This document shows positions 49,406-64,000 of a DNA stretch of 64,000 nt, piece after piece. Where the stretch lies: IMG/VR virus record IMGVR_UViG_3300027770_000026, positions 186,001-250,000 of that record; one strand, 5' to 3'. Source of the stretch: a virus. The stretch's first letter is position 1, and each line of letters begins with the position of its first letter. Both the position numbers and the translations under genes were made by a program. The notes under the pieces were generated by a model. It ran no database searches, was not told the DNA's origin, and saw only the letters and a list, made by a program, of their open reading frames with translations.

Positions 49406-49797
49406 AGTGTGTAATCTACTCCCATATTAGCTAACTGTTGACGTGTTTCCGTAATCATTGCGTGTGGTACCTTAAAGGTAATCTTATTACTCTCGCTAAG
49501 GTCTTTGGCTTCCTTGAGCCCAATGTTAGTGCAGACACGAATCAATTTGATTAGTGCTACCTTGTGATTAGCAGGATAGTATTTGATATGACAGACACGT
49601 TTAAATTCGCTAGCACCAGTTATCATTGAGAAGAATATAGATGACCGCACATCTTCTCCCAGTGTAGCCGATACGCTATCCCAAATAACCATACCCTCTT
49701 CGCTACCGTAGATTTCAGTAACGGTAGCAATGAAGCTTAATGAGCTATCAACTAACTCATTCTTTTGATTAACAGTGAGCTCTTCCCAGCTAGTCAC
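49402..49797 (-). CDS. Protein with ribosomal L7/L12 C-terminal-like domain
   Basis: This is a 131-residue protein. The C-terminal half (about 78-131: VALIKLIRVCTNIGLKEAKDL, then a final beta strand) closely resembles the L7/L12 C-terminal domain that recruits translation GTPases. The N-terminal half (YGSEEGMVIWDSVSATLGEDV) is unrelated. A role in redirecting host translation factors is possible. The start is GTG with AAGGAG 6 nt upstream. It lies between the VWA protein and ligase genes. Confidence 0.7.
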   Translation of the reverse strand: MTSWEELTVNQKNELVDSSLSFIATVTEIYGSEEGMVIWDSVSATLGEDVRSSIFFSMITGASEFKRVCHIKYYPANHKVALIKLIRVCTNIGLKEAKDLSESNKITFKVPHAMITETRQQLANMGVDYTL

Positions 49798-49806
49798 AGG
49801 AACTCC

Positions 49807-51039
49807 TTAGTGCTTCTTCTCAATGGGATAGTAAGCATGGTTACCAAAGGGCGGAACAATGCTCTCGGTGCCATGGATGATGAACACGGTATCACAGTAG
49901 TCCGGCTTGCCCCATGCACCCCACGGATAACCGTCAGTGAACATGATGAACTTCTTAGGACGGATGTCATTCTCTTCCATCCAGTTCCAGTTAGCCATGA
50001 ACTCAGTACCACCACCGCCGTGAATCTCATACGAGTTGAGATCGTAACGATTGCACTCGTCATATTCCTGCGGATTGTACACCTGAGTATCAAAGCACCA
50101 TATCTTCAATTTGAAGTCACGGAACTGATCCATGATGCCCTGGATTTCGCCGAGGAAGTCACGCACCATCTGTTCCGAGATGCTACCGCTGACGTCAATC
50201 GCAACACAGATGTCTACCGTCTCTTCGGGAAGCGAGCCGGGCAAGTAAATGCCGCTGCTCCAAGTCTTACGGTTGGGACGCTGCCAAGTGTAGTCTGCAC
50301 GGATCAAGCTCTGGATCTGCTGACGCAGTAGTTCACGCCAGGAGATCTGCGGCTCCGTAAAGTCCTTGATCAGCTTCTTAACGAAGCCGGGAATGTTACC
50401 AGCACCAGCACTCTTAGCAGCAGCAAGCACTGCCTCGCGGAACTCGTCACGCAGTTCCTTAGCCAACTCCTTGCTAATAGTAGGAGCCTTACCGTTGCCG
50501 CCACCATCGCCGGATTCGCTGTCGCTCTTGCCCTTGCCTTCCTCGTCGCCTTCGCCGTCGCCAATCTCAAGATGGATGTCCAAGGTACTCTTACCCTTGT
50601 ACTTCTCTTCGTCCTTCTTGACGAGGTCATAGACCTCTTCGGTGAACATGCCGCGGAACTTGCGGTCATACAAGGGGGTGACCACCTTGATCAGTTCGCC
50701 AACACCACCGTCAACCAACTCTTGGTTAATCACGTAGTCGCCAGCCACGTTCCACAACACTTTGTCGCGGTCGCCTAAACGACCAAAGTGGTCAAGAACG
50801 CAGTGGCCAATCTCGTGACCTACCAAGAACTGTGTTTCTTTGATGCTGAGTTTGTTCACAAAGTCACGGTTGATGAACAAGCTCTTGCCGTCGGTGGCAG
50901 CAGTGGGGCACCAGCCCTCATCGGTCACATCGCAAATCTTGAGTCGCGTTGCAAGGTTGCCCCAAAAGGGTTGATTCATCAGCAAGCCAACGCGGGCTGT
51001 GATAATCTTCTTTTCAATTTCTGCGTAGCTCACTGTCAT
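49807..51039 (-). CDS. VWA-domain metallopeptidase-like protein
   Basis: This is a 410-residue protein. It has an N-terminal zinc-peptidase-like HEIGH (75-79), an acidic/Gly-rich linker (about 158-185), and a C-terminal VWA domain with the MIDAS motif DVSGS (282-286) and later FTDGYPWG. Such proteins pair with MoxR-type AAA+ ATPases, one of which is encoded about 1.8 kb upstream. Together they may remodel or mature a protein complex. It has its own strong promoter and AAGGAG. Confidence 0.82.
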   Translation of the reverse strand: MTVSYAEIEKKIITARVGLLMNQPFWGNLATRLKICDVTDEGWCPTAATDGKSLFINRDFVNKLSIKETQFLVGHEIGHCVLDHFGRLGDRDKVLWNVAGDYVINQELVDGGVGELIKVVTPLYDRKFRGMFTEEVYDLVKKDEEKYKGKSTLDIHLEIGDGEGDEEGKGKSDSESGDGGGNGKAPTISKELAKELRDEFREAVLAAAKSAGAGNIPGFVKKLIKDFTEPQISWRELLRQQIQSLIRADYTWQRPNRKTWSSGIYLPGSLPEETVDICVAIDVSGSISEQMVRDFLGEIQGIMDQFRDFKLKIWCFDTQVYNPQEYDECNRYDLNSYEIHGGGGTEFMANWNWMEENDIRPKKFIMFTDGYPWGAWGKPDYCDTVFIIHGTESIVPPFGNHAYYPIEKKH

Positions 51040-51059
51040 TGCAATCTCCTTACCTTATG

Positions 51060-51093
51060 TTCGTATTATACGAAAACGCTCAAAGAAATGCAA
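51060..51093 (-). promoter_or_regulatory. Sigma70-like promoter with palindromic -10 (VWA unit)
   Basis: Minus strand TTGCAT (51093-51088), 17-nt spacer, TATAAT (51070-51065). The -10 is the centre of a perfect palindrome TTCGTATAATACGAA (51060-51074). A 20-bp motif begins 13 nt upstream of the -35. Confidence 0.8.
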
Positions 51094-51106
51094 CAACTAA
51101 ATTCTC

Positions 51107-51163
51107 AATAGAATCAATGACTTACGCAGCCTAGAAAAGCTAGTAAAATCAATGACTTACGCT
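51107..51163. repeat. Two copies of a conserved intergenic motif
   Basis: On the + strand AATAGAATCAATGACTTACG (51107-51126) and a partial copy AATCAATGACTTACGC (51147-51162). The same motif occurs at 54340 and 54405. The first copy lies 13 nt upstream of the -35 of the VWA promoter. Confidence 0.75.
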
Positions 51164-51686
51164 AGAGTGCAGCGTACGGGATAGTGTTAGCTGATTCCAT
51201 TTCCTGTTTGAGCTCAACCAAATCGTCAAATGTCAACCTGTTTGGGTCCAAACGCGGACTGTAAATAGCACTATTCTTTTCAGCTTCGATCATCTCGCAG
51301 CTCACAACCCAATTACGACCACCGTTTTGTTTCTGCAGCATGTCGTCTACATACTCGCCAACATACTGAGCAAGCCCTTCGCAACTGATTAAGGGGAAGG
51401 TCTGCAACTTGCAATGACCCTTAACAGTAAGCTCGCGGAACGTGGTTACCAGTGGATCGTCTGCTTGGAGGATTACCGTATGGTCAAACCAATCTTCCAG
51501 TTGACGCTTGATAGCCTTAAGGCCACCAAAATCCACAACAAAGCCCTGCTTGTCTAGATTGTCGCAACCAAATACAAACTTGAAGCTGCGGTCGTAACCA
51601 TGCAGCATGTAGCAATCGGTATCACTCTTCCAATTGCGATAGGCACATGGGCCAATCTCCTTAAAGAACTTGGTACTAGTATACAT
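51162..51686 (-). CDS. QueD/6-pyruvoyltetrahydropterin synthase-like protein
   Basis: This is a 174-residue protein of the QueD/PTPS fold: CYMLHGYDRSFKFVF, then GFVVDFGGLKAIKRQL and WFDHTVIL (D68-H69), plus CEMIEAEKNSAIYSP. QueD makes 6-carboxytetrahydropterin on the route to 7-deazaguanines, matching the QueE gene at 59085. Zinc ligands look eroded: where relatives have His there are Tyr16 and Asp24, leaving H29. It may be inactive or altered. An inverted repeat CCTGATG/CATCAGG (51694-51729) lies upstream. Confidence 0.75.
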   Translation of the reverse strand: MYTSTKFFKEIGPCAYRNWKSDTDCYMLHGYDRSFKFVFGCDNLDKQGFVVDFGGLKAIKRQLEDWFDHTVILQADDPLVTTFRELTVKGHCKLQTFPLISCEGLAQYVGEYVDDMLQKQNGGRNWVVSCEMIEAEKNSAIYSPRLDPNRLTFDDLVELKQEMESANTIPYAAL

Positions 51687-51724
51687 AAAAATTCCTGATG
51701 TTTAGATATTGTACTTATACAGCA

Positions 51725-52222
51725 TCAGGCAGCAAAGCCTAACAATTTCATAGCATAGTAATCTCGCAAGCCAGACCACTGCGACGAGTAGATAGTAACG
51801 TACACTGTATATTCACGAATGGTAGATTCCCACGGACTGGTGTTACCAAAGTACTTGCCAGCCCCCCGCCGCCAAGTACCCATCTTTACACCAGGGATAG
51901 CGTTAAAGAAGCCCTGCACAAAAGAGTCCATTTCGTGTACTAAACTATCTTCAGCAGACCCATAAACATATGCGCTCATTATAGCAGTAACATATCCCTC
52001 TTCCATAAAAAAAAGAGTAGAATCCTCGTCATCTTCGTTGAGACTACTATACTGTAGTCTCTCATCAAATTGAATGCGACTCATATACATGAAAGGAACG
52101 TTAGGGGCAAACAGGTGCTGCTTCTTGACCAGTACCGTAAAGACATCCTGAATTGGAATAATCTTTGGTTGGAGAGTCTCCAACAACTTAGTCAGCTTAC
52201 GCTTGTTTGCCTGCTTGGTCAT
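51725..52222 (-). CDS. Unknown protein in MoxR unit
   Basis: This is a 165-residue protein with a basic N-terminus, a stretch of acidic residues (LNEDDEDSTLFFMEE) and an aromatic C-terminus (WSGLRDYYAMKLLGF). No domain recognised. It overlaps the upstream gene by one base. It belongs to the unit that starts with the MoxR-like ATPase and ends with QueD. Confidence 0.65.
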   Translation of the reverse strand: MTKQANKRKLTKLLETLQPKIIPIQDVFTVLVKKQHLFAPNVPFMYMSRIQFDERLQYSSLNEDDEDSTLFFMEEGYVTAIMSAYVYGSAEDSLVHEMDSFVQGFFNAIPGVKMGTWRRGAGKYFGNTSPWESTIREYTVYVTIYSSQWSGLRDYYAMKLLGFAA

Positions 52223-52410
52223 TAGTGAATCAACTCGCTAGCCGGCACTTCCAGTACAGCAGGAATACTGGCAATGTTTTGATTGCTGCGCAGCACCTTG
52301 AATACCGTGTCTGCACCTAGCTCTTCATCAATGAGAAGAGTGTCGCCGTCCCACCTTGCCAGAATTAGATTCTGTTCAAGGCACTTGAGAATAGTGTTAC
52401 GATAGCTCAT
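52222..52410 (-). CDS. Small unknown protein
   Basis: This is a 62-residue protein from the ATG at 52408-52410, with AAGGGG upstream; an in-frame upstream extension would overlap the previous gene. It has mixed alpha/beta composition (LARWDGDTLLIDEELGADTVF). No function can be given. Confidence 0.6.
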   Translation of the reverse strand: MSYRNTILKCLEQNLILARWDGDTLLIDEELGADTVFKVLRSNQNIASIPAVLEVPASELIH

Positions 52411-52420
52411 ATGTTTCCCC

Positions 52421-52804
52421 TTACCAACTGGCCTGATAGTGAATGGTGCGTAGCAACTTAGTGTCTTCTTTGAGCCAATCAAGCACCTTACCCAACTGCT
52501 CTACGTCGAGCGCAATTTCGTCCTCGTCCATGTAGCTCTTGCCAAAGAAGGCTCCTTCGGTATGCGGTAACGATAAACCTTTTACTGCTTCAACAATGTC
52601 CAGCAAGTCCGTAGCCGTTAGCGGAATATTCTGGCACTCGTCTACACCTCCCGCAAACTGCTGCACGATGTAACCGTGCAGGTTAGGATGCTTACGCCAG
52701 TAGGCCAGTTCGAGGTCATCGCCCGATTCTACCAAGTCAGTCGCGTCCGGATCCGTAGTCCAAACGCGATGCTCCTTACCAAACATCCACATGTCAAGTC
52801 CCAT
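52421..52804 (-). CDS. Conserved phage protein (MGLDMW family)
   Basis: This is a 127-residue protein that begins MGLDMWMFGKE and contains LELAYWRKHPNLHGYI, a pattern I associate with a common family in phages and bacteria of unknown function. It lies 11 nt after the MoxR-like ATPase gene and is likely cotranscribed. Confidence 0.7.
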   Translation of the reverse strand: MGLDMWMFGKEHRVWTTDPDATDLVESGDDLELAYWRKHPNLHGYIVQQFAGGVDECQNIPLTATDLLDIVEAVKGLSLPHTEGAFFGKSYMDEDEIALDVEQLGKVLDWLKEDTKLLRTIHYQASW

Positions 52805-52815
52805 GTCCTTACTCC

Positions 52816-53919
52816 TTACTTGGCGCTGACCGCAGCAGTGATGTACGCACCGTACTTCTTAGCAAACTCAGGGTAGGTCGTCATCTTGCTACCCTGGAAC
52901 ACCAAACCGTACTGCTGCATCGCAACCTTGACAGCAAGGATGCAGATCTCGGTGTTGAAGTTATCCATCATGTAACGGAAGAAGCAGTCGACCATGCCGT
53001 GCCACTCCTTGTCGTTAAGCTTACCCTTGTTCTTGGTGTAGTAGTCGCGCAGCTCGTAGCAGAGCGAAGTCATGAGACTGTACTGCGCACTGATCTCCTT
53101 GATCTTGAGGTCCTTGACCTTACCCGACAACACATCGCCAGGATTAGGCAACTGACCGTTGGTCTTGCGGTGCGCCATGAACTTTACAGCCAAGCCTTCA
53201 CCAACTGCGCCACTGACCAAGTCCATCACCGTGCTGTCGCTAGCAGCCTTGTCCTGCAGCATGTCGCTAACGAAATGCCAGCTACGGGGCGTAGCGAACG
53301 CACGACTGGCGCTGTTGGGGCTGAAGTCGTAGAGGTCGCCCTTAGCGTAGTTAAGGTAACCAACCACGTCCGGGTGGATGTTGTTATCCACAGCCCACAA
53401 CATCCACGTATCAAAGTCTGCACGGACCTCCAAGTGAACGAAGCGATTAGCCAACGGAGCCGGCATGCGATACGTGACGCCACGGTCACCTTCGCGGTTA
53501 CCTGCGGCAATGATCACCACGTTGTCGGGCAGTTCGTACTCGCCAATGCGGCGATTCAGCACCAGCTGGTATGCGCTGGCCTGCACCGCAGGAGCAGCAG
53601 AGTTGAGCTCGTCCAAGAACAGCACCACGTAGGGGTACTTCGCAGCCTGCTCCTTGCTGGGCAGTTCAGCCGGGGGAGCCCAACGCATACGACCGCTAGT
53701 GCCGTCGAAGTACGGCATACCCTTGAGGTCGGTTGGGTCCAGCAACGCCAAACGCAGGTCAATCAGCAGACCGCCACCTGCGCGAGCAATCTGCGCAGCC
53801 ATGTCGCTCTTGCCCAAGCCCGGCGGACCCCAGATGAAAACTGGACGCTTCGTGCGCATGGCCACGTCAACAGCCTTGCGGGCTTCGGTCAACGTCACAG
53901 TGCGAATTTCGTGGGACAT
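52816..53919 (-). CDS. MoxR-type AAA+ ATPase
   Basis: This is a 367-residue AAA+ ATPase: Walker A GPPGLGKS (31-38), Walker B FLDEL (101-105), and a sensor-like VVIIAAGNREGD. MoxR-type ATPases act with VWA proteins as a chaperone-like pair, and the VWA/metallopeptidase gene is encoded in the next unit. The ATG at 53917-53919 has AAGGAG upstream and is preferred over a TTG two codons earlier. A strong promoter precedes it. Confidence 0.85.
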   Translation of the reverse strand: MSHEIRTVTLTEARKAVDVAMRTKRPVFIWGPPGLGKSDMAAQIARAGGGLLIDLRLALLDPTDLKGMPYFDGTSGRMRWAPPAELPSKEQAAKYPYVVLFLDELNSAAPAVQASAYQLVLNRRIGEYELPDNVVIIAAGNREGDRGVTYRMPAPLANRFVHLEVRADFDTWMLWAVDNNIHPDVVGYLNYAKGDLYDFSPNSASRAFATPRSWHFVSDMLQDKAASDSTVMDLVSGAVGEGLAVKFMAHRKTNGQLPNPGDVLSGKVKDLKIKEISAQYSLMTSLCYELRDYYTKNKGKLNDKEWHGMVDCFFRYMMDNFNTEICILAVKVAMQQYGLVFQGSKMTTYPEFAKKYGAYITAAVSAK

Positions 53920-53948
53920 ATTCAACTCCTTGTTCTAACTGTAGGACT

Positions 53949-53977
53949 AGTATAAGTCCAATTTAATTCCGTGTCAA
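53949..53977 (-). promoter_or_regulatory. Strong sigma70-like promoter of the MoxR unit
   Basis: Minus strand TTGACA (53977-53972), 17-nt spacer, TATACT (53954-53949). The -10 lies exactly between arms GGACT and AGTCC (53944-53959). The -35 overlaps the stop region of the GIY-YIG gene. Confidence 0.85.
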
Positions 53978-54291
53978 GCCAAATTCAATTTGGGTTTGCG
54001 TTTTGCAATCAGCTCGCGCTCACGTTGGTGAGCCCAAGCCTTACCACGCCCCGTTTCCAGGATGGTGAGTTCAAAAGCCTCTGGCCCATACTCGCGCATC
54101 GCTTCGTAGAGGGGCCAGGGGCGGTGCTCACTGCGAGCACGATAAACGTGTTTCATAAAACGAGACTTTACACTGGAAAGCACCGTAGAGCAAGTCTTAG
54201 CAGTAATACCAATGTACTGCTTCTTGCCCAAACTCAGCATGTAAATTACATGAGTCCGATCGGTACGCTTTTTACGCTTCTTGCTTTCCAT
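53974..54291 (-). CDS. GIY-YIG domain protein
   Basis: This is a 105-residue protein with the GIY-YIG core (THVIYMLSLGKKQYIGIT), an Arg in SRFMKH and RERELI with a probable catalytic Glu. The size suits a minimal UvrC/Slx1-like nuclease. I chose the ATG at 54289-54291; a GTG at 54324 would lie in the promoter. The ATG follows the -10 by only 6 nt, so the mRNA is probably leaderless. Confidence 0.75.
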   Translation of the reverse strand: MESKKRKKRTDRTHVIYMLSLGKKQYIGITAKTCSTVLSSVKSRFMKHVYRARSEHRPWPLYEAMREYGPEAFELTILETGRGKAWAHQRERELIAKRKPKLNLA

Positions 54292-54297
54292 GTTCGT

Positions 54298-54326
54298 ATA
54301 ATAGCGAACTGCAAGCGAAACCACAA
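54298..54326 (-). promoter_or_regulatory. Sigma70-like promoter of the GIY-YIG gene
   Basis: Minus strand TTGTGG (54326-54321), 17-nt spacer, TATTAT (54303-54298), followed by ACGAAC and the ATG. It shares TATWATACGAACAT and an upstream motif at identical spacing with the VWA promoter. Confidence 0.7.
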
Positions 54327-54339
54327 GAAATATAATCCT

Positions 54340-54425
54340 AATAGAATCAATGACTTACGTGATCTGCGTGTAAGTTGTTGATTTTGTTGGGAATTTAAAA
54401 GTCTAATAGAATCAATGACTTACGC
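54340..54425. repeat. Direct copies of the intergenic motif with an inverted degenerate copy
   Basis: AATAGAATCAATGACTTACG occurs at 54340-54359 and 54405-54424. Between them, 54371-54391 reads as a degenerate reverse copy (GTAAGTTGTTGATT), so the first copy and this form an imperfect inverted repeat around TGATCTGCG. It lies between the 54428 stop and the GIY-YIG promoter. Confidence 0.75.
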
Positions 54426-54427
54426 AA

Positions 54428-54817
54428 TCATGCGTTTAGGGACACAAAAACATCCCAATTTCCACCACTCATAATCCAACTGACCTGCATCTGCTCGTCC
54501 CAATGGGAGACTTCAAACTTATTGTGCCGCTGGGTAAGGAACCAGGGCTTGCCTTTGATATAGGTCAGCAAGTGAAACATCTTGCTACCGGTCATGATCT
54601 CTTTGACTGTAATGGTGTAAGGGGTATAAAGAGATTGAAGACATTTAAATCCATATTCGGTTAATCTCAGATTAGGATTGTCCCGGTGATACCAAATGTT
54701 TCGATTGCGAGTAGATTGAGAGTGTACAGCTACACTCTCGGGTGATTCACTGAGCAGCAACCCAATTTCAACTTCAAGTTGCTGCTTAGTTGTTCGCCAA
54801 TCTTCAAAAATCTGCAT
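54428..54817 (-). CDS. Unknown protein, last of RNase H unit
   Basis: This is a 129-residue protein with many aromatic and basic residues (HRDNPNLRLTEYGFKCLQSLY, then HLLTYIKGKPWFLTQRHNKF). It overlaps the glutaredoxin gene by 14 nt. No domain recognised with confidence. Confidence 0.65.
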   Translation of the reverse strand: MQIFEDWRTTKQQLEVEIGLLLSESPESVAVHSQSTRNRNIWYHRDNPNLRLTEYGFKCLQSLYTPYTITVKEIMTGSKMFHLLTYIKGKPWFLTQRHNKFEVSHWDEQMQVSWIMSGGNWDVFVSLNA

Positions 54818-55052
54818 TCAAGTTGGTCGCCAGATGGCTTTTGATTAGGTCTTGGAATCCACCAATACGTTCACCATCTACATAGATCTGCGGAACGGTG
54901 CGCACACCATTACCTACGCTTTCGTAAAACTTCTGACGTTCGCTGTCGTTATCTATTACGATTTCTTCGTATGCATAACCCCTTTGCTTGAGCCAGTTCT
55001 TAGCACTAACGCAATATGGGCAATTGGTCTTTGAATATACCTTAATGTTCAT
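54804..55052 (-). CDS. grx: Glutaredoxin
   Basis: This is an 82-residue glutaredoxin with the CPYC active site (C11, C14) and RTVPQIYVDGERIGGFQDL, where the cis-Pro TVP and the GG motif bind glutathione. It likely reduces ribonucleotide reductase or other disulfides, like T4 NrdC. Its ATG overlaps the upstream stop as ATGA. Confidence 0.92.
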   Translation of the reverse strand: MNIKVYSKTNCPYCVSAKNWLKQRGYAYEEIVIDNDSERQKFYESVGNGVRTVPQIYVDGERIGGFQDLIKSHLATNLNADF

Positions 55053-55279
55053 GTAAATTTTCCACCTTGTAATTCTACTTCAGTGACCAAGCTAGTGGTC
55101 ACTTGTTCTTGCAGTTTAATATTCTGCTCTTGACTCTGCGTTAGCTGAAGCATAAGATATGTAAGATCGTCTGCCATGCGACGGGCAACATCGGTGCTAA
55201 ACCGAACTTCTTTTTTATTACTTCGTTCCGCGGCACTTACAGTGGCTACAAATTCTCGTAAATTAGCAGGATTAAACAT
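55049..55279 (-). CDS. Small helical protein
   Basis: This is a 76-residue protein with a predicted helix/coiled coil (MADDLTYLMLQLTQSQEQNIKL). It is coupled to the glutaredoxin gene. Function unknown. Confidence 0.65.
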   Translation of the reverse strand: MFNPANLREFVATVSAAERSNKKEVRFSTDVARRMADDLTYLMLQLTQSQEQNIKLQEQVTTSLVTEVELQGGKFT

Positions 55280-55291
55280 TAGTATACTTAG

Positions 55292-55750
55292 TCAGTTATT
55301 AAGCGACTCTGCTTCTTCTTCGGTGTAGAAAGGTCCCCAAAAGCGATTACGGTTAAGTGTTAGCAACTTGGGACAAAACTCCTGCTTAAACTTGTTACCA
55401 TATTGAATACGATACCAACCTGCTGCAAAGAAACACTTGCTGTTTGGTACCTTAGTAAACAAAGGCAAACGTCGCTTGGCTTCGATCATGGGATCGTAAT
55501 ATGTATCGCAGTCTGTTGCATAACCCGCAAGATCATTTACACTTTGCGAGTCAATCTCATTGGATTCAGGCTCCCACTCTTCTACACCCAACTGCTTGCG
55601 TACTGCTTTTACAGTCTTAGCAGGAATTACACTGCCCTTACATGCAACAATGAATCCTTCGTCCGTCTTATGAACAGACGCAACTTTAATGTCTTCATCA
55701 TAGACCAGCCAACTGCGTCCAGGTGCAGTAGTTTTAATTGTTACATTCAT
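55292..55750 (-). CDS. Conserved T4-like phage protein, unknown
   Basis: This is a 152-residue protein. The C-terminal part (RRLPLFTKVPNSKCFFAAGWY, then FCPKLLTLNRNRFWGPF) recalls a conserved hypothetical of T4-like marine phages. No catalytic motif. It is translationally coupled to the RNase H gene by an ATGA overlap. Confidence 0.7.
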   Translation of the reverse strand: MNVTIKTTAPGRSWLVYDEDIKVASVHKTDEGFIVACKGSVIPAKTVKAVRKQLGVEEWEPESNEIDSQSVNDLAGYATDCDTYYDPMIEAKRRLPLFTKVPNSKCFFAAGWYRIQYGNKFKQEFCPKLLTLNRNRFWGPFYTEEEAESLNN

Positions 55751-56703
55751 TTGAAAATCTCCATATATGCGTGTGCGCTTTGACTAATATTATCGAGCCC
55801 GTGCAATCCACAAAACTTCATAAAGTATGCGCCTGCTTGTGCTCGTGGCATTATAGCAGCTTTTGCAACTGTGATTGTATTATCTAGTTCTGTTTTGATC
55901 CAGTCTGGTTGTGCAGTAAGATCAATTAGGTGCCGATTACGCTCGTAATCTTCAATCACACGATGCTCAACTTCCTCGTGATCAACCCAACGCTGTAGCA
56001 TAAGATTGTTCCACTTGAAGCCACGATCCTTACGGTCAGTAAAAGCTTCTAGAAGTTGAGTCTTGCGAACGCGAGGAAAAGCACTAAACACATTATCGCT
56101 AGAATCCCCTCGCATACACTTCTCAAAAAGTAGCCATTCAGGATCACCCAACACTTTAGGCTCGCTAGTTTTCTTGTCAATGACTGGCTTAAACTTGTCA
56201 TCTGTGATACCGTCCTTTGAGATAATTTCTTTACTAATGCCGTTGAAAATCTTTACATTATCCGTAACTAACTGATAGAAGTCGCGGTCGCTGCTACAAA
56301 TAATGTGTTCGTCTTCGGGATGCAGTTGCGTCCATCGCGCAATAAAATCGTCAGCTTCACACTGCGAATGACGTAGTACTAGTGCACCACTACGCTCTTG
56401 TAGGAACTTACTGAATTCATCTAGCTTGTCCCAGAAAGCCTTGTCCTCTTCTTGTTCGCGAGGAGTTTGTGCGCCTCGTGCGTCTGTGCGATTCTTCTTG
56501 TACTTGGCGTATACATCCTTGCGCCAACTGCGCCCCTCGAGGCAGTATACCACACGATCTGCTGAGAATAGTTCCTGCGCTCGCTTTACGGAACTGAGTA
56601 AGATATGTAGTGCCATGCTGGTACGCATCTCAAGATCATCACCTTGAGCTACGAACCGAGCACGACTAAAAGTATTAGCGGTATCGACTAGTAGATATTT
56701 CAT
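55747..56703 (-). CDS. rnh: RNase H / FEN-type 5' nuclease (T4 Rnh-like)
   Basis: This is a 318-residue PIN/FEN nuclease (T4 Rnh 305). It has N-terminal YLLVDTANTFSRA, QCEADDFIARW, CSSDRDFYQLV, and MRGDSSDNVFSAFPRVRKTQ, giving the acidic metal site and helix-hairpin-helix. It removes RNA primers and flaps during lagging-strand synthesis. The ATG at 56701-56703 is preferred to a TTG three codons upstream. First gene of its unit. Confidence 0.9.
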   Translation of the reverse strand: MKYLLVDTANTFSRARFVAQGDDLEMRTSMALHILLSSVKRAQELFSADRVVYCLEGRSWRKDVYAKYKKNRTDARGAQTPREQEEDKAFWDKLDEFSKFLQERSGALVLRHSQCEADDFIARWTQLHPEDEHIICSSDRDFYQLVTDNVKIFNGISKEIISKDGITDDKFKPVIDKKTSEPKVLGDPEWLLFEKCMRGDSSDNVFSAFPRVRKTQLLEAFTDRKDRGFKWNNLMLQRWVDHEEVEHRVIEDYERNRHLIDLTAQPDWIKTELDNTITVAKAAIMPRAQAGAYFMKFCGLHGLDNISQSAHAYMEIFK

Positions 56704-56731
56704 AATGTCCAAACATAATTAGTGTATAGAC

Positions 56732-56760
56732 ATATTAAACTAGTACTATCGCAAAGTCAA
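56732..56760 (-). promoter_or_regulatory. Sigma70-like promoter of the RNase H unit
   Basis: Minus strand TTGACT (56760-56755), 17-nt spacer, TAATAT (56737-56732). Confidence 0.75.
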
Positions 56761-56774
56761 ACTTATTTTGGACG

Positions 56775-57194
56775 TTACTTAAACCATCCAATCTTCTCAC
56801 CAGCAGCGACACGACGTTGCCATTCTGCGAGACTGCCTGGATAGCGTATTGCCCAAATCATCCAGAACGCCATGAATGCACTTACGCCCATAACCAATTT
56901 CCAGTTGTGGGTAGTAAGCCAAAGTATAACCAAACTTGCATCCATGCAAATGAACATGATCCATTTGGCCTTGCTTGGATAAACTTTTTTGTCTTTCCAG
57001 TTTGTAAGAAACGGGCCAAACAGCTTGTGATTCATCATCCAATTGTGCCATTTATCGCTGCTCTTAGCAAAGCAATATGCTGCTATGATTGTTGGTGTAC
57101 TCCAGGGAATACCGGGAGTAACCATACCAATATACGCAATACCCAAGCATATCATGCCTGCAACGAAAAACAATGCCTTCTTGATCTTGTCCAT
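56775..57194 (-). CDS. DUF454 (YbaN-like) inner-membrane protein
   Basis: This is a 139-residue protein with the DUF454 pattern: GIAYIGMVTPGIPWSTPTII, AYCFAKSSDKWHNW, and HKLFGPFLTNWKDKK, then two hydrophobic helices near residues 77-93 and 98-114. The family sits in the inner membrane; function uncertain. It is divergent from the heme oxygenase gene, sharing a 38-nt gap with it. GAGG precedes the ATG. Confidence 0.8.
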   Translation of the reverse strand: MDKIKKALFFVAGMICLGIAYIGMVTPGIPWSTPTIIAAYCFAKSSDKWHNWMMNHKLFGPFLTNWKDKKVYPSKAKWIMFICMDASLVILWLTTHNWKLVMGVSAFMAFWMIWAIRYPGSLAEWQRRVAAGEKIGWFK

Positions 57195-57211
57195 AATTTA
57201 ATCCTCTAGGC

Positions 57212-57229
57212 AGTATTTACATAAGTACT
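57212..57229. promoter_or_regulatory. Imperfect palindrome in the DUF454/heme oxygenase divergent gap
   Basis: AGTATTTACATAAGTACT, 14 of 18 positions symmetrical. It contains a possible -10 (CATAAG) ending 7 nt before the heme oxygenase ATG, with only a weak -35 (TTTAAT, 57197-57202). Could be an operator for both genes. Confidence 0.35.
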
Positions 57230-57232
57230 ACT

Positions 57233-57787
57233 ATGAGCCTAAAAGAACTTACCAAAGACAAACATACTGCTGCGGAACATACGCCATTTATGCAGTCAGT
57301 GTTCAAACGCACAATGCCCGTTGAAATTTGGGCAGACTATACCCTAAACAAGATGCATTGGTACAATGCTATCGAAATGCGAGCAAGAGCTGCAGGTCTA
57401 TTGGAAGACCTTCCGGGGCTCGAACGTACATATCTACTGTATCAGGATTACAGAGCTATGTGTAAAGTTCCCAATCACTTCTACACTGTTAGCACCATGC
57501 GCTACTACACATACATTATGGATTTAGTTGATGTTGATGCCATCATGGCCCACTTGTATGTATGGCACATGGGCGACTTATATGGCGGGCAGATGATTAA
57601 GCAGATTATGGATCATGTGTCGCATCGTAATTTAGATTTTGATAATCCTGACTTGCTCAAAGCAAACATCCGAGTTAAGTTGCATGATGGCATGGCCAAT
57701 GAAGCTAACTGCGCATTTGATTGGGCAATACGTATTATGAACGAGTACAATGAGGCATTGACTAGTGGACATATGGCAAAAGGCTGA
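57233..57787 (+). CDS. Heme oxygenase
   Basis: This is a 184-residue heme oxygenase of the HO-1/HemO type. H11 in LTKDKHTAAEH is the likely proximal heme ligand, and WHMGDLYGGQ (about 111-120) is the distal-helix motif (GDLxGGQ). It opens heme to biliverdin, Fe(II) and CO using a reductant, usually ferredoxin here. No good SD precedes the ATG, so the message may be leaderless. It overlaps the bilin reductase gene by 23 nt, linking substrate and product steps. It sits on the + strand between minus-strand genes. Confidence 0.93.
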   Translation: MSLKELTKDKHTAAEHTPFMQSVFKRTMPVEIWADYTLNKMHWYNAIEMRARAAGLLEDLPGLERTYLLYQDYRAMCKVPNHFYTVSTMRYYTYIMDLVDVDAIMAHLYVWHMGDLYGGQMIKQIMDHVSHRNLDFDNPDLLKANIRVKLHDGMANEANCAFDWAIRIMNEYNEALTSGHMAKG

Positions 57788-58436
57788 AGCTTGTGGCGAT
57801 AGAGTCGTGCAATTATTGCAGGGCATTGGCCCAGCAGTTGATCATCCTAGTAATCCTCCTACTACTTTTGGTTGGCACAGTTATATACACTCGTCTGACC
57901 GTGTACGCCGTGCCCACGTTGACATCATCGATGCAAGAGAGACACACAAATTATGGATCATGCACTGTTGCATATTTCCCCACGTAAATGATAATAGTCC
58001 TATTTTTGGTTTTGACATTATTAGCGGTCCTAGTCGCATTAGTGGAGCATTTCTAGACTTCTCTTTTGCAGGCGTTAATGACCATTCAATGATGAAATGG
58101 TTTGACCAACGTGTGACAAACTTAAATTGGAAGAAAGAGCGTCAACTGCCAGACTGGGCTGCTGCTATCTTTAGTCCTGCAATGGTAGCCGCAGGTGCAA
58201 TAACTGACGAACAGGAAGTTGATCAGTTAACAGGACTTGGTGTTGAATGTTTGGAGTACTATTTAGAGCATGTAGGCCGTCAGAGAAACGATCACAAGGA
58301 CAGTTATCACGAACAAAATAATTACTGTATAAACCAAAAGCGGAATCCACATACTCCACGGACTATGAATATATTGGGTCTTACGCCGGACCAAGTCACA
58401 GAGTTTTTCGAACACCTAATGTTTCCGGAACTTTAA
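57765..58436 (+). CDS. pcyX: Ferredoxin-dependent bilin reductase (PcyX/PcyA-like)
   Basis: This is a 223-residue FDBR family enzyme starting at GTG (GAGG 9 nt upstream). The family core is visible: KLWIMHCCIFP (H67), NSPIFGFDIISGPS (D84) and FLDFSF. D84 and H67 are spaced like PcyA Asp105 and His88; the place of PcyA Glu76 is Ile55. Paired with heme oxygenase in a non-cyanophage T4-like genome, it best fits PcyX, which reduces biliverdin to phycoerythrobilin. PcyA or PebS activity cannot be excluded from sequence alone. Its stop overlaps the convergent gene. Confidence 0.82.
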   Translation: MDIWQKAEACGDRVVQLLQGIGPAVDHPSNPPTTFGWHSYIHSSDRVRRAHVDIIDARETHKLWIMHCCIFPHVNDNSPIFGFDIISGPSRISGAFLDFSFAGVNDHSMMKWFDQRVTNLNWKKERQLPDWAAAIFSPAMVAAGAITDEQEVDQLTGLGVECLEYYLEHVGRQRNDHKDSYHEQNNYCINQKRNPHTPRTMNILGLTPDQVTEFFEHLMFPEL

Positions 58437-58795
58437 AAGTATTCTGCTGTTCCGTCGTCGTTTGCTCGCTTGTTAATCTTAGGTTTAGCTAGTGCATCAA
58501 CGTATTCGTCGTTTTCGCCTGCAACAAACGTACATAATGCTTTAACATATTGGTCCATGATATCACCGTCTGTTTCACCGGTATATCCTTCTACTTTTAG
58601 TTTGTCAATGAAAGCAGCATTCCAATCTAGTTCAAAGTAACCGTTGTGTGGCTGATCTGGATCAACATGCATCTTAACATCAACCCAGGGCTCGCCTTTC
58701 TTTGTGGCTTGATCCTTAGGTGATAGTACACGCTTCTTTTTTGGTGCGGGAGTGTTCTCTTCCCCTTGCGCTACACTAGTCTTCTTTCGTGCCAT
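58433..58795 (-). CDS. Conserved phage protein, unknown
   Basis: This is a 120-residue protein with a Lys-rich N-terminus (ARKKTSVAQGEENTPAPKKK) and a conserved core GEPWVDVKMHVDPDQPHNG-YFELDWN that I associate with T4-like marine phages. Function unknown. It overlaps the next upstream gene and converges with the bilin reductase gene. Confidence 0.7.
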   Translation of the reverse strand: MARKKTSVAQGEENTPAPKKKRVLSPKDQATKKGEPWVDVKMHVDPDQPHNGYFELDWNAAFIDKLKVEGYTGETDGDIMDQYVKALCTFVAGENDEYVDALAKPKINKRANDDGTAEYF

Positions 58796-58967
58796 TTTCT
58801 TTTATCCTCTTGAGATATTTAGCGAACGACTCTTCACTCACCGTATCTAATTCTGTACCAAAGCGTTGCTTCATCATCCAACTGTGCCCAGATTCTAACT
58901 TGGTAGGTTTGGGTGTCGTGTTCTGCTGCCACAGAGATTTCCACCGGGATGTCAAGCGATCTAACAT
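58776..58967 (-). CDS. Small unknown protein
   Basis: This is a 63-residue protein from the ATG at 58965-58967 (KLESGHSWMMKQRFGTELD). It overlaps the next gene upstream by more than 130 nt in another frame, unusual for this genome, but both frames look coding. It overlaps the gene downstream by 20 nt. Confidence 0.5.
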   Translation of the reverse strand: MLDRLTSRWKSLWQQNTTPKPTKLESGHSWMMKQRFGTELDTVSEESFAKYLKRIKENGTKED

Positions 58968-59085
58968 ATTCAATTTTACTCCTCTGTGGTTCTTGCTTAC
59001 AACAATGATCTACATAACTGCCTGGGTCCATACTATCGTATGAAATATCATCAATTTGAAATAACGCTATTACCGTATGCGTCAT
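58834..59085 (-). CDS. Small unknown protein coupled to queE
   Basis: This is an 83-residue protein starting at an ATG that shares a base with the QueE stop (TGATG). It contains a plausible mixed sequence (ALFQIDDISYDSMDPGSY, then VEISVAAEHDTQTYQVRIW). No domain recognised. Confidence 0.55.
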   Translation of the reverse strand: MTHTVIALFQIDDISYDSMDPGSYVDHCCKQEPQRSKIEYVRSLDIPVEISVAAEHDTQTYQVRIWAQLDDEATLWYRIRYGE

Positions 59086-59951
59086 CAAGTACCCCATGCA
59101 TTCTTAAACAAGTCACATTGTAGTCGTGGGCTATACCACCAACCTTCCTGCATGGCAAGTTCTGCTACCTGACGTGCATTAAGGAAGTATGAATCCACAG
59201 TGCCACCAACCGGCATTAGATAGACCGGACAATGTACACCAGCAGCTTGATAAAGGCTAACAGCACGACGAACATCATCAAGATCATGCATATTACTAAC
59301 CACAAACTTGAGATAAAAACTGCTCCCACCGCCAGACACCATATTATAATAACTTCTAGCAATGTCAGGTTGTATAGCCTCTTCCCAAGCTTCACCACTG
59401 ATTGATAGTTTGGGACTGCAACTCCACGTAACGTGGATGTTACTTTGCGTCTCAAAAAACGTAGCCAACTCCTTGGTGATCTTTTGCGTAGTGTTTGTTT
59501 CAAACGTGACATTCTTTAGGTCTGCAAGCAATGGGTGTTGCAATAATTGTATATAGCTCTTTTGCCATCCTAGCAGTGGTTCTCCGCCAGTGATAACCAA
59601 ATGAATGTCTCGTCCGTTATCCTGTGTCCACTTGCCATTAGGAATAATGTCCACAAAACGTTTTGCAATTTCGTCAATAGTTAGTGTGGGGCTAAACTTC
59701 TTAAATTTAGGATGCCAACTTGCATAACTATCACATCCAGTTGGTGCAAGCGGCAAAGAATCATAACTATCGTACTTGCTAAGTTGATTAGCAATACGTT
59801 CGGGCTCATCGCTGCGTTCACCAAGCGGTAAGCCAAATCCTCTACACTGGAAGTTACATCCAAATGTACGGAAGAACACACTGGGCACACCTGCCCAACG
59901 TCCTTCACCTTGTATGCTGTAAAAGATTTCTGCTGTTTTAATCTTGCTCAT
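59085..59951 (-). CDS. queE: 7-carboxy-7-deazaguanine synthase QueE (radical SAM)
   Basis: This is a 288-residue QueE: EIFYSIQGEGRWAGVPSVF, then FGCNFQC and VITGGEPLLGWQ. It converts carboxytetrahydropterin to 7-carboxy-7-deazaguanine. Its cluster cysteines are unusual: C32 and C36 are present, but there is no third Cys at +3; the next is C73 in TGCDSYASWH after an insertion. This likely restores the [4Fe-4S] ligand set in the phage-type form. QueD-like is in the window; QueC/FolE are not. Confidence 0.88.
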   Translation of the reverse strand: MSKIKTAEIFYSIQGEGRWAGVPSVFFRTFGCNFQCRGFGLPLGERSDEPERIANQLSKYDSYDSLPLAPTGCDSYASWHPKFKKFSPTLTIDEIAKRFVDIIPNGKWTQDNGRDIHLVITGGEPLLGWQKSYIQLLQHPLLADLKNVTFETNTTQKITKELATFFETQSNIHVTWSCSPKLSISGEAWEEAIQPDIARSYYNMVSGGGSSFYLKFVVSNMHDLDDVRRAVSLYQAAGVHCPVYLMPVGGTVDSYFLNARQVAELAMQEGWWYSPRLQCDLFKNAWGT

Positions 59952-60799
59952 GGTAAGTTGTTCTCTATTAGGAATTTTTCATATACTTCCTGCCAGGACT
60001 CGGATTGCAATATATTGGTACTGGTCATTTGTGTATTGAGTGGACGCTTTGCTGGTTTATTTAGGTTAGCTAGTTTGCTAGGTACAATTTCTGTAGACAG
60101 ATTATACGCTAGTTTAATGCACTTTGCAAATTCATAAAAGCTATCGCCGTAATTTGCTCGCGGTACAAGATGATTGAGCCCGCGGTCCAACTTCAAACGT
60201 TCCCATGTCTTCCTTGCAATCCAATCACTACTAGTTGGAACGGTGAATTGATCATTAACTACTTCTATTCTATCCTTAGTTGCAGCCGCACATAGTATTG
60301 CAGTATGAAAGTTCTTATTACTTGTAGAATATACTGCAGATACTCGATAGATGGTATAGGAGGTGGTATATGACATCACTTCTTCTTCGCCATCAGACTT
60401 GCTGCTCCCATAAAAGTTTACGGGATTCTTATCCGACTGTTCAACATACTTTCCGGTTAAATCAGTAAAACCGTCAAACACATAATCAGTAGAATAATGT
60501 ACTAGATGAAAGCCCATGTTATTACTGAGCCGTGCAAGCTGTGCAGGAAATTGAACATTAGCATGCCAGCAAAGATGCCTATTCATCACATCTTCGGAGC
60601 CGTCTACGTCAGTATATGCAGCAGCATTGATTACGTATTTAGGGGCAACTGCACGAACAAAACGTTCAACTGCAGGCGAGTCCACAAGATCAAATTTGGA
60701 TCTATCATGCGCAATGATTTCATAATCACTAGGTGCAAACTTTTGTAGACTAGTGCCTACTTGACCAGTTGCACCAAAGATTAGTACACGGTCACCCAT
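59948..60799 (-). CDS. rmlD: dTDP-4-dehydrorhamnose reductase RmlD
   Basis: This is a 283-residue short-chain reductase with GATGQVG at the N-terminus, YVINAAAYTDVDGSE and YSTDYVFDG, ending with SDWIARKTWERL. It makes dTDP-L-rhamnose in the last step. The ATG at 60797-60799 overlaps the RmlC stop. Confidence 0.9.
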   Translation of the reverse strand: MGDRVLIFGATGQVGTSLQKFAPSDYEIIAHDRSKFDLVDSPAVERFVRAVAPKYVINAAAYTDVDGSEDVMNRHLCWHANVQFPAQLARLSNNMGFHLVHYSTDYVFDGFTDLTGKYVEQSDKNPVNFYGSSKSDGEEEVMSYTTSYTIYRVSAVYSTSNKNFHTAILCAAATKDRIEVVNDQFTVPTSSDWIARKTWERLKLDRGLNHLVPRANYGDSFYEFAKCIKLAYNLSTEIVPSKLANLNKPAKRPLNTQMTSTNILQSESWQEVYEKFLIENNLP

Positions 60800-61352
60800 A
60801 ATGTACTGCCTGCGTAACATCAATGCCCGTGCGGTCCTTATCAGCTTGAATTATCTGATTACGCATTGGAAGTAGATAACTTGTAAACTCGTCAACACTC
60901 CAAAAGTTGATGCAATACTCGTCGTCCTTCTGCCATAAGCTCTTAGTGACACCATAGTTAAAAATAGTGTTGTCTTCTAGCGCAAGGAAGCCATGCGCGT
61001 ATCCGGGCGGCACATAGAGATAATTGAGATTCTCCGTACTAAGTTCAAAGATACCAGTGTTTAGATAGGTTGGTGAATCCTTACGCAGGTCAATAACAAA
61101 GTCAACTGCACTACCTTGAATCACACTTACTAGCTTACCCTGTGGATTCTTTAGCTGGTAATGCAATCCACGTAGCACATACTTCTTGTTATATGAAGTG
61201 TTTTGCTGCAGTACTTCAAACTCTTTTTCCCAACCAAACCACGAATGATTATATGTTTCTTGAAATGATCCACGATTGTCTGCAAAGTTCTTAAACTGAT
61301 ACAGGCGTAGGTCGTTGAGATTTTCAAACATTTCGTAAGTTTTTTCATTCAT
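60792..61352 (-). CDS. rmlC: dTDP-4-dehydrorhamnose 3,5-epimerase RmlC
   Basis: This is a 186-residue cupin epimerase: DNRGSFQETYNHSWF, VLRGLHYQLKNPQGKLV, VDFVIDLRKDSPTY, and VPPGYAHGFLALED with the active-site His. The ATGA overlap with the RmlA stop fixes a likely start (another ATG lies 15 nt upstream). Step three of the rhamnose pathway. Confidence 0.92.
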   Translation of the reverse strand: MNEKTYEMFENLNDLRLYQFKNFADNRGSFQETYNHSWFGWEKEFEVLQQNTSYNKKYVLRGLHYQLKNPQGKLVSVIQGSAVDFVIDLRKDSPTYLNTGIFELSTENLNYLYVPPGYAHGFLALEDNTIFNYGVTKSLWQKDDEYCINFWSVDEFTSYLLPMRNQIIQADKDRTGIDVTQAVHYG

Positions 61353-62236
61353 CGAATTAGTTTCCATAGGTATTGTCCGTAAGGGGTCTTGTCGCATAGT
61401 TTAGCAGTAACTGCTAGGTCTTCGTGTAATATCCATTCATTTTTGAATGCAGCCAAATGTGGAGAGCCTATTAGTACATTCTGCGTAGTCTGCATTATAT
61501 GTACATATTCAGCAGCTTGCAAGAGCGATGGTGCATTACCCGTGTCAAACCAAACAGTACCTTCGTCTAGAATTGTTACAAACAGTTCTTCGCGATTGGC
61601 ATACTCTTTGTTAACATCGGTAATTTCAAACTCGCCTCGATCGGATGGTTTTAAGTTAGCAGCAATTTCAAATATGGACGTTGGATAGAAATACAATCCA
61701 GTTACTGCGAGGTCGCTCTTTGGTTCCTTTGGCTTTTCTTCCAAAGAAAGCACACGACCATGATCATCTAATTCTACTACGCCAAATCGTTCTGGATCCT
61801 GTACATGCATGGCGAAGCATACTGCATTCTTTGCAGCTCGTGCTAACTGCAATGCTATATCAAACTTTGACCCATGGAATAGATTGTCTCCAAGTATCAA
61901 TGCAATACGTTCAAATTGATCATATCCATCGATTTGGTCTGCTACAATAGTAAATGCTTGTGCAATACCACGTGGCTTTGGCTGTACTGCAAAATGCAAG
62001 TTAATGCCAAACTGTTGCCCTGCACCCTCGAACAATTTTTTAAATACTGTTTGCTCGTCTGGGTTTGTGATTAGTACAACGTCCCTAATACCTGCAGTAA
62101 TTAGTGTAGTTAGTGCATAGTAGATCAGTGGCTTGTCGTATACAGGTACTACCTGTTTAGTACATGCTAGTGTTGCAGGGAAAAGACGTGAACTCTTGCC
62201 CGCGGCAAGAATAATGCCCAGTGTTTTTCTATCCAT
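61349..62236 (-). CDS. rmlA: Glucose-1-phosphate thymidylyltransferase RmlA
   Basis: This is a 295-residue nucleotidyltransferase: LGIILAAGKSSRLFPAT, VYDKPLIYYAL, LILGDNLFHG, FGVVELDDHGRVLSLEEKP. It activates glucose-1-phosphate with dTTP. The ATG at 62234-62236 overlaps the RmlB stop (TAATG). Confidence 0.93.
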   Translation of the reverse strand: MDRKTLGIILAAGKSSRLFPATLACTKQVVPVYDKPLIYYALTTLITAGIRDVVLITNPDEQTVFKKLFEGAGQQFGINLHFAVQPKPRGIAQAFTIVADQIDGYDQFERIALILGDNLFHGSKFDIALQLARAAKNAVCFAMHVQDPERFGVVELDDHGRVLSLEEKPKEPKSDLAVTGLYFYPTSIFEIAANLKPSDRGEFEITDVNKEYANREELFVTILDEGTVWFDTGNAPSLLQAAEYVHIMQTTQNVLIGSPHLAAFKNEWILHEDLAVTAKLCDKTPYGQYLWKLIR

Positions 62237-63210
62237 TATTGAAACCTTTCTGGTCGTTGTAAGTACCAATCAACGGTACGCTCGAGTCCCTGTGTAAAAC
62301 TCATGTTAGCTTGCCAACCTAATGATTGTAGCTTGCTACTATCTATCGCATACCTAAAGTCGTGCCCTGCTCGATCAGTAACATAACTGATTAGGCTTTT
62401 GGACTTGCCCATGATCTCAAGTATGCGCGTGGCAAGGTCAATATTATTAACTTCATTATCGCCGCCAATGCAGTATTGTTCGCCTAGATTACCATGCAGT
62501 AGTAGTGTTTCTAGTGCAGTGCAATGATCATCTACCCATAGCCAGTCGCGTATGTTCATACCATTGCCGTATACAGGAATTGGTTTGTCTGCTAGCGCAT
62601 GGCGTATAACAGTAGGAATAAACTTTTCCTTGTTCTGTCTTGGTCCATAGTTATTACTACAGTTACTAATCATTGCAGGAACATTGTGTGTTTGATAGTA
62701 CGAACGCACAAAGTGATCACTAGCTGCTTTGCTAGCACTGTATGGACTATTAGGAGCATACTGACTTAGTTCATTAAATGGTTCATCATGTTCACGTAAA
62801 GACCCAAAAACTTCGTCTGTACTTACATGCAGGAATCGAAATTCTTTGCTTACCTTTCTCATGTAAAAACGTACACTATCTAGAAAGTTAACAGTGCCCA
62901 TTACATTATGTTTAACAAATGGTCCACTACTTTCAATGGATCGGTCTACGTGACTTTCAGCAGCAAAATGTACGATATAATCTGGTTCAAAGTAGCATAG
63001 AACCTTCTTGTTCATAGTTACATGATTGATATCGTCTTTGAGGAATATATAATTGGGATGATGTTCGAGCTCTGCAACATTATCTATATTAGCAGCATAG
63101 CTCATTATGTCCAAATTGACCAAACGCCAGTCTGGATAATTCTGCGCCCAATGCAGTAGGAAGTTGCTGCCAATAAAGCCGCAACCGCCTGTGATAAAAA
63201 TTGTTTTCAT
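62236..63210 (-). CDS. rmlB: dTDP-glucose 4,6-dehydratase RmlB
   Basis: This is a 324-residue SDR dehydratase: FITGGCGFIGSNFLLHW, VHFAAESHVDRSI, STDEVFGSL, YSASKAASDHFVRSY (Tyr-Lys pair) and NNYGPRQNKEKFIP. With RmlA, C and D it completes dTDP-L-rhamnose synthesis, encoded in pathway-linked overlapping genes. Confidence 0.94.
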   Translation of the reverse strand: MKTIFITGGCGFIGSNFLLHWAQNYPDWRLVNLDIMSYAANIDNVAELEHHPNYIFLKDDINHVTMNKKVLCYFEPDYIVHFAAESHVDRSIESSGPFVKHNVMGTVNFLDSVRFYMRKVSKEFRFLHVSTDEVFGSLREHDEPFNELSQYAPNSPYSASKAASDHFVRSYYQTHNVPAMISNCSNNYGPRQNKEKFIPTVIRHALADKPIPVYGNGMNIRDWLWVDDHCTALETLLLHGNLGEQYCIGGDNEVNNIDLATRILEIMGKSKSLISYVTDRAGHDFRYAIDSSKLQSLGWQANMSFTQGLERTVDWYLQRPERFQ

Positions 63211-63211
63211 A

Positions 63212-63412
63212 CTAGGATTTATTTGACTTACGAGCAGTGTGCCAATTTAAACTGCAGTTGGGACTACAGAACACTATAGTTACAATATCTTTGGGAGTAG
63301 GACCTGCAATCCAGTACTTTGGGTAACCGCTATCAACATAATGTTCATTCCATGCTGACAACAGTAAACCGCATTGACCGCATGTTAATTGCTGATCCAC
63401 CAATTCTCCCAT
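63212..63412 (-). CDS. Small zinc-ribbon protein
   Basis: This is a 66-residue protein with CGQC near the N-terminus and FCSPNCSLNWH near the C-terminus, a treble-clef or ribbon-like zinc site. The ATG overlaps the phosphoribosyltransferase by 28 nt. Function unknown; DNA or protein binding possible. Confidence 0.7.
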   Translation of the reverse strand: MGELVDQQLTCGQCGLLLSAWNEHYVDSGYPKYWIAGPTPKDIVTIVFCSPNCSLNWHTARKSNKS

Positions 63413-63948
63413 GGGTAATCTACCCACACATCTTCTTCTGCCTTGTTGATTTCTTGTCCAATAAAGTCTACTTTAATCTTGCTCTGACTGGCCAAATTAT
63501 CTAGTAGTACAGCAAAGCAAACATTGTTGTTCCATACGTTCTTCCAATGTTCGTCCATTGAAATGCCAGCGGTCATCCAGCTGTTCATAATAGCATTGAT
63601 GGTTGCACCGGTATCGTTGATATCATCTACGATGAGAATATTTTTAGGAATAGCATTAGCTAATAGCTCAGTAGGATCGTCATTGAAGAAATCAATTTCT
63701 TCGTTGGAGTCGCCTAGTGCATCATCAATCATCCACTTATGAACTTCAACTTCACTAGCGTCTCGCAGACTTACTCGCAATGTGTGACATGGTACTTGAT
63801 AATACTGACTGATCATTACAGCAGGAATCAAACCACCACGAGTAATGCCAACCACATAGTCTGGCTTCCAATTGTTCAGCGTCATCTTTCGGATGATCTC
63901 GCTTGTTAGATTACTAACGTCCTGCCAGGTAACTTGTTGATGTTTCAC
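63385..63948 (-). CDS. Phosphoribosyltransferase
   Basis: This is a 187-residue type I PRTase with GITRGGLIPAV and the PRPP-binding loop ILIVDDINDTGATI (D108-D109). It is similar to bacterial xanthine/hypoxanthine PRTases and to phage-encoded ones. It starts at GTG, overlapping the upstream stop as GTGA. Substrate not predictable. Confidence 0.85.
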   Translation of the reverse strand: MKHQQVTWQDVSNLTSEIIRKMTLNNWKPDYVVGITRGGLIPAVMISQYYQVPCHTLRVSLRDASEVEVHKWMIDDALGDSNEEIDFFNDDPTELLANAIPKNILIVDDINDTGATINAIMNSWMTAGISMDEHWKNVWNNNVCFAVLLDNLASQSKIKVDFIGQEINKAEEDVWVDYPWENWWISN

Positions 63949-64000
63949 TTGGATTGTCCGGTTAATAGTGCTTCGGTAATACGATATACATTACACGCTT
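63945..64000 (-). CDS. 3' end of an upstream gene
   Basis: The minus-strand frame reads NVYRITEALLTGQSK and stops at a TGA that overlaps the PRTase GTG. Only 18 residues are visible, so no identity is given. Confidence 0.5.
   Translation of the reverse strand, partial: ACNVYRITEALLTGQSK

Follow-up and report, generated by a model that had tools for sequence, protein, structure and literature searches.

A divergent hemO–FDBR gene pair in a 266-kb T4-superfamily phage and its candidate heme-to-phycobilin pathway

Phage contigs carrying hemO-pcyA/X(-alaS) genes are known, and the viral FDBRs characterised so far in partnership with hemO are either PcyX, which makes phycoerythrobilin (PEB), or the PcyA of the freshwater phage CB_2, which makes phycocyanobilin (PCB) (PMC11480375). 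Asp55 has been termed a PcyX-specific catalytic residue, and its absence was used to explain the PCB activity of CB_2 (PMC11480375). Glu76 is PcyA-specific and is required for reduction of the 18-vinyl group (PMC10151467). Phage hemO–FDBR pairs in non-cyanobacterial hosts have no agreed role. The pair described here is a divergent example of this known kind, in a jumbo-related phage; among its relatives the pair is common, is coupled to HSP20 and ClpS, and varies naturally at the residue thought to set the bilin.

The window, that is, the whole 64,000-nucleotide stretch analysed, covers positions 186001-250000 of a 265,892-base virus record (G000). The features at the locus are as follows.

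56775..57194, minus strand: DUF454 membrane protein (PF04304, 1.4e-27), the divergent neighbour, 38 nt from hemO
57233..57787, plus strand: hemO, heme oxygenase (HO), 184 aa
57765..57787, plus strand: 23-nt overlap of the hemO and FDBR frames, from the ORF coordinates
57765..58436, plus strand: FDBR of the PcyA/PcyX ('AX') type, 223 aa, GTG start

Both open reading frames lay where a sequence-only reading of this DNA had put them, with the same 23-nt overlap, and the ORF map likewise agreed with its description of a plus-strand pair set within a block of minus-strand genes. The overlap suggests that translation of the two genes may be coupled; in related phage loci hemO/FDBR overlaps are usual, mostly of 4-62 nt. 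Since a second IMG/VR contig matches window positions 49765-64000 at 99.99% and spans both cassette junctions, the arrangement did not arise from misassembly of a single contig. A dTDP-rhamnose set (rmlA, B, C and D; 59948-63105, minus strand) adjoins the cassette, and a QueE-like radical SAM protein is encoded at 59085-59951.

The hemO product matched the Pfam family Heme_oxygenase (PF01126; 1.5e-12, 48.2 bits against a curated cut-off of 23) and, in the PDB, HmuO (1iw0, E=1.9e-8). Both proteins were modelled with AlphaFold on aligned window and locus sequences, and the HO model (pLDDT 95.4) was matched by Foldseek to HmuO (TMq 0.79) and HO-1. The H11 and GDLYGGQ claimed for this heme oxygenase are indeed present; judged by sequence, the proximal heme ligand is expected to be H11 and the distal-helix motif GDLYGGQ. 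The protein has the proximal His in HxxAE, the GD(L/M)xGGQ helix and, in the predicted model, the HO fold, and its H11, E15, H107 and GD..GGQ are invariant among the 19-20 phage HOs aligned. It falls in a well-supported phage HO clade (support 99), the partner FDBRs of which are mostly of the Glu or Ser type. At L082, L108 and L255, an HO of the window type is paired with an FDBR of the PcyX-core type; hemO and FDBR genes have therefore been reshuffled. For the window-clade HOs at L119, L126, L127, L132, L135, L137 and L141, no FDBR was found within the retrieved stretch.

The sequence-only reading had staked its interpretation on the downstream product being a member of the FDBR family. This membership was confirmed by a match to Fe_bilin_red (PF05996; 6.9e-17, 62.3 bits against a curated cut-off of 31) and by the AlphaFold model (pLDDT 90.5), which has the alpha/beta/alpha FDBR fold and gave Foldseek matches to PcyA and PcyX at E~1e-11. 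The best PDB match was PcyX (5owg, E=3.9e-45), with PcyA at 1.1e-11. H67 and D84, which correspond to PcyA His88 and Asp105, show the same spacing of 17 as in PcyA, as had been read, and are invariant across 95 aligned FDBR rows. The Ile assigned to the position of PcyA Glu76 was an alignment slip, because the earlier count (12 back from H67) had missed a 2-residue insertion that the window FDBR and PcyX share before the active-site strand (HVDIIDARETHKLWIMH vs HLELAKVGKGLDILH in PcyA). The residue that aligns with Glu76 is Asp53, the equivalent of PcyX Asp55. The window FDBR accordingly has the PcyX combination of an Asp-His pair and an Asp replacing Glu76 (D84, H67 and D53), and has Asp in the column where PcyA has its Glu. 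At the positions that tell PcyX-core and Glu-clade phage FDBRs apart it has the core letters D53, W64, M66, C69, T197, L204 and L206, among which W64, M66 and C69 adjoin the active-site His; its Glu-clade letters lie mostly at sites other than W64/M66/C69/T197/L204/L206. Asp55 was reportedly found to be non-catalytic in the 2018 work of Ledermann, and its change to Glu is said not to have turned PcyX into PcyA. We therefore treat Asp at residue 53 as a marker and not as proof of the product.

FDBR trees were computed without the residue-53 column and without the CB_2 and alphaproteobacterial PcyA sequences. Phage FDBRs formed one group, separate from cyanobacterial and cyanophage PcyA (100/100); in it, a large Asp group containing 5owg and Mosig was accompanied by Glu and Ser clades and by minor rows with Asn, Gln or Val. 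The window FDBR stood alone on a long branch in the first tree; in the tree with closer relatives it grouped, with modest support, with L186 (Asp, 52% identity) and L187 (Asn), and this trio adjoined the Ser clade in the best tree (77/88, not firm). PcyX is the nearest solved relative, and in both trees the window FDBR was placed outside the branch of characterised PcyX. Taken overall, the enzyme does not lie closer to the PcyX core than to the Glu clade (difference in log-likelihood 2.7). The AU test did not reject a single clade of all Asp/Asn/Val rows (p-AU 0.18) or the trio with the PcyX core (p-AU 0.15), and was borderline for the window FDBR alone with the PcyX core (p-AU 0.058).

We propose, tentatively and at rather less than an even chance, that the window FDBR represents an uncharacterised phage lineage between PcyX and PcyA, part of a large phage pool whose hosts are probably non-alphaproteobacterial and in which the product-deciding residue has undergone repeated changes among Asp, Glu, Ser, Asn, Gln and Val. 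If so, such a lineage would allow the evolution of bilin regiospecificity to be tested directly. The natural variants among the relatives offer a set of enzymes with which to test what determines the bilin product. Some rows lack both Asp and Glu at the Glu76 position and have instead Ser (L111, L113, L120, L122, L130, L138 and L139), Asn (L160, L172 and L187), Gln (L133) or Val (L171). At L108:4515-5856 and L255:2974-4322, hemO precedes two FDBRs in tandem, an Asp-type (PcyX-core) one and then a Glu-type (PcyA-like) one, which suggests that PEB and PCB could both be made from a single biliverdin pool.

Both proteins of the window pair are very probably active, one as an HO and the other as an FDBR. 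The HO would open heme, yielding biliverdin IX-alpha, iron and CO, and the FDBR would then reduce biliverdin to a phycobilin with four electrons, taken two at a time from host ferredoxin; the product would most likely be PEB, by the PcyX reaction, and less likely PCB. We infer enzymatic activity, the exact bilin and the use of host ferredoxin in the window phage, and regard the chain from heme through biliverdin to PEB, encoded by an overlapping two-gene auxiliary metabolic cassette, as moderately probable. PEB is favoured because W64, M66, C69, T197, L204 and L206 of the window FDBR are PcyX-core letters. The far stronger PDB match to PcyX than to PcyA, the alignment of Asp53 with PcyX Asp55 and the commonness of hemO–FDBR pairing also support this chain; the placement outside the characterised-PcyX branch and an HO clade that mostly accompanies Glu- or Ser-type FDBRs count against it.

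The enzyme could instead be functionally a PcyA and make PCB, as the freshwater CB_2 enzyme does (PMC11480375). The FDBR partners of the window HO clade mostly carry Glu, and grouping with the Glu clade was not rejected for the trio (p-AU 0.089), but we consider this unlikely, given that the PcyA-specific Glu76, needed for 18-vinyl reduction (PMC10151467), is replaced by Asp and that W64, M66 and C69 are letters of the PcyX core. Less likely again is a different or mixed bilin, such as 18-1,18-2-dihydrobiliverdin, phytochromobilin or a two-electron product: the window lineage is uncharacterised and belongs to neither the PcyX core nor the Glu clade, this active-site residue would vary in it among Asp, Asn, Ser and Glu, with Asp and Asn in the sister rows and Ser in the clade that is joined, and pre-PcyA FDBRs without Glu76 yield phytochromobilin or PEB (PMC10151467), but the H67/D84 pair and Asp53 are all kept, as in PcyX.

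Neither a Fer2 ferredoxin nor phycobiliprotein genes were found in the G000 record, which may be incomplete. Weak phycobilisome matches in other records were discarded, being below the cut-off and inside 2200-3500-aa open frames. AlaS (TIGR01821) is present in 8 of 20 related records and absent, in the cassette and elsewhere, from the possibly incomplete G000, which thus does not have the three-gene hemO-pcyA/X-alaS cassette. The benefit to the phage might lie in disposal of heme with release of iron, together with a reduced bilin that acts as an antioxidant or signal. Light harvesting seems less probable than such heme/iron handling, because the searches turned up no bilin acceptor and because proteostasis neighbours (HSP20 and ClpS) are usual in the relatives, the context of which is an argument for a possible heme, iron or stress role.

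These relatives came from IMG/VR scans that gave at least 492 FDBR relatives (first scan), at least 595 HO relatives and at least 579 FDBR relatives (later scan). Because its search pattern favoured Asp, the first FDBR scan was not used for counting Asp rows; the scan anchored on HO is free of FDBR-sequence bias. Many of their taxon numbers presumably stand for freshwater lakes. Among 148 distinct retrieved phage loci, which are the best-scoring ones and not a random sample, about 138 have hemO followed directly by the FDBR, and 118 have ClpS just upstream on the same strand, nearly always with HSP20 (Pfam identities). The usual order is HSP20–ClpS–hemO–FDBR with ClpX near (IMG/VR loci L015-L262), a phage block of which we found no description in the literature searched. 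G000 has HSP20–ClpS at 78.5-79.3 kb, where no cassette follows, hemO–FDBR lying 165 kb away; the stretch at 78.5-80.9 kb is the G000 region that corresponds to this block. The related 327-kb record G020 has an intact block with a divergent DUF454 upstream, 85% identical to that of the window, and L118 has ClpX, DUF454 (opposite strand), HSP20, ClpS, hemO and FDBR in a single run. Because of the divergent DUF454 upstream of the block in G020 and L118, and of the gene order in L138 and L139, we think that DUF454 probably moved together with the window cassette.

The most economical interpretation is a relocation in the lineage of the window phage that split DUF454, hemO and the FDBR from HSP20–ClpS. 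The late acquisition as a cassette that had been suggested earlier finds no support, as the HO is an ordinary member of the phage HO clade and the GC content of the cassette (0.429) equals that of the window (0.432) and the genome (0.43). That the cassette is vestigial, its genes present but no longer useful after detachment from the HSP20-ClpS block of most relatives, as the long FDBR branch might hint, is very improbable in view of intact frames, catalytic residues that are all kept, confident predicted folds and the presence of the same pair on the second contig. A search for FDBR relatives in plasmids found none. The sole, weak match of the genome_contigs scan was an interrupted FDBR-like fragment (L095:5200-5580) on a contig labelled Bacteroidetes, probably misbinned and possibly a misbinned algal gene.

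The source genome is that of a 266-kb T4-superfamily myovirus, with a gp43-like polymerase, gp46/47-type nuclease subunits, a gp23-like capsid protein, and baseplate and tail-sheath genes; ribonucleotide reductase is also encoded. The sequence-only reading was right to see a heme-to-phycobilin pair in a T4-like genome, but such a genome context was already known (Mosig; contigs of PMC11480375). The capsid protein is 67% identical to that of the Sinorhizobium jumbo phage Phosso and 65% to those of Vibrio phage 2.275.O and Pseudomonas PA5oct-like phages, and the polymerase 48% to that of Phosso and 42% to those of PBECO4-like coliphages. By these proteins, jumbo phages and not pelagiphages or cyanophages are closest to G000. 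Near-identical DNA was not found among the sequenced phages searched, and the PF04896 profile (pmoC-phage kinship) had no match in G000, but the control likewise matched nowhere, which makes this absence uninformative. Capsid and polymerase were set aside as host indicators: the nearest isolate infects Sinorhizobium, but by capsid the Pseudomonas and Vibrio phages are equally near.

G000 also encodes roughly two dozen tRNAs, as well as a permuted tmRNA.

L007:10659-11038, equal to G000 70.7-71.0 kb, minus strand: permuted tmRNA

The betaproteobacterial model was the best for this tmRNA (124.5 bits) and for all 10 of the 10 tmRNAs checked in the group, G000's included; for that of Mosig, the host of which is SAR11, the alphaproteobacterial model was best. 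An alphaproteobacterial host, the kind that the earlier reading mentioned for PcyX phages, finds no support here, the tmRNA being nearer the betaproteobacterial type, and the evidence leans away from such a host, although phage tmRNAs need not track hosts. Permuted tmRNA genes are present in 14 of 19 hemO-FDBR phage records (including L272-L281 and L282), and their tags vary widely, some being very long, for example ANADTFDFSAMSFTGNTVRGAANESRFALAA in L273. At L275:722-797 (minus strand), adjoining the phage tmRNA, ARAGORN called a tRNA with a CUA anticodon, labelled Pyl, which is probably an amber suppressor tRNA.

Compared with known systems, the window FDBR shares its superfamily, and its standing as a phage auxiliary gene, with cyanophage PebS and PcyA. 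PebS, absent from the sequence-search matches of the window FDBR, has Asn where the window enzyme has H67, and cyanophage PcyA, which does not have the insertion, carries Glu at position 53. CB_2 resembles the window phage in being large and non-cyanobacterial and in encoding hemO together with an AX-type FDBR, but it lacks the PcyX Asp55, makes PCB and has alaS (PMC11480375). Pelagibacter phage Mosig EXVC030M (MT647606) resembles the window phage in its overlapping hemO-FDBR genes, T4 relationship and permuted tmRNA; identity is 38.5% for the FDBR and ~30% for the HO, and Mosig differs in having the pair beside neck-protein genes, a Fer2 ferredoxin and a tmRNA of the alpha type. PcyX (5owg, PcyX_EBK42635), the PEB synthase from uncultured marine phages, shares with the window pair the FDBR fold, the Asp-His pair, the Asp55 equivalent, the two-residue insertion and a hemO directly upstream. 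The window FDBR is 38% identical to it and lies outside the branch of 5owg and Mosig, the window HO comes from a different phage HO clade, and the genome that carries the pair is that of a 266-kb jumbo-like phage.
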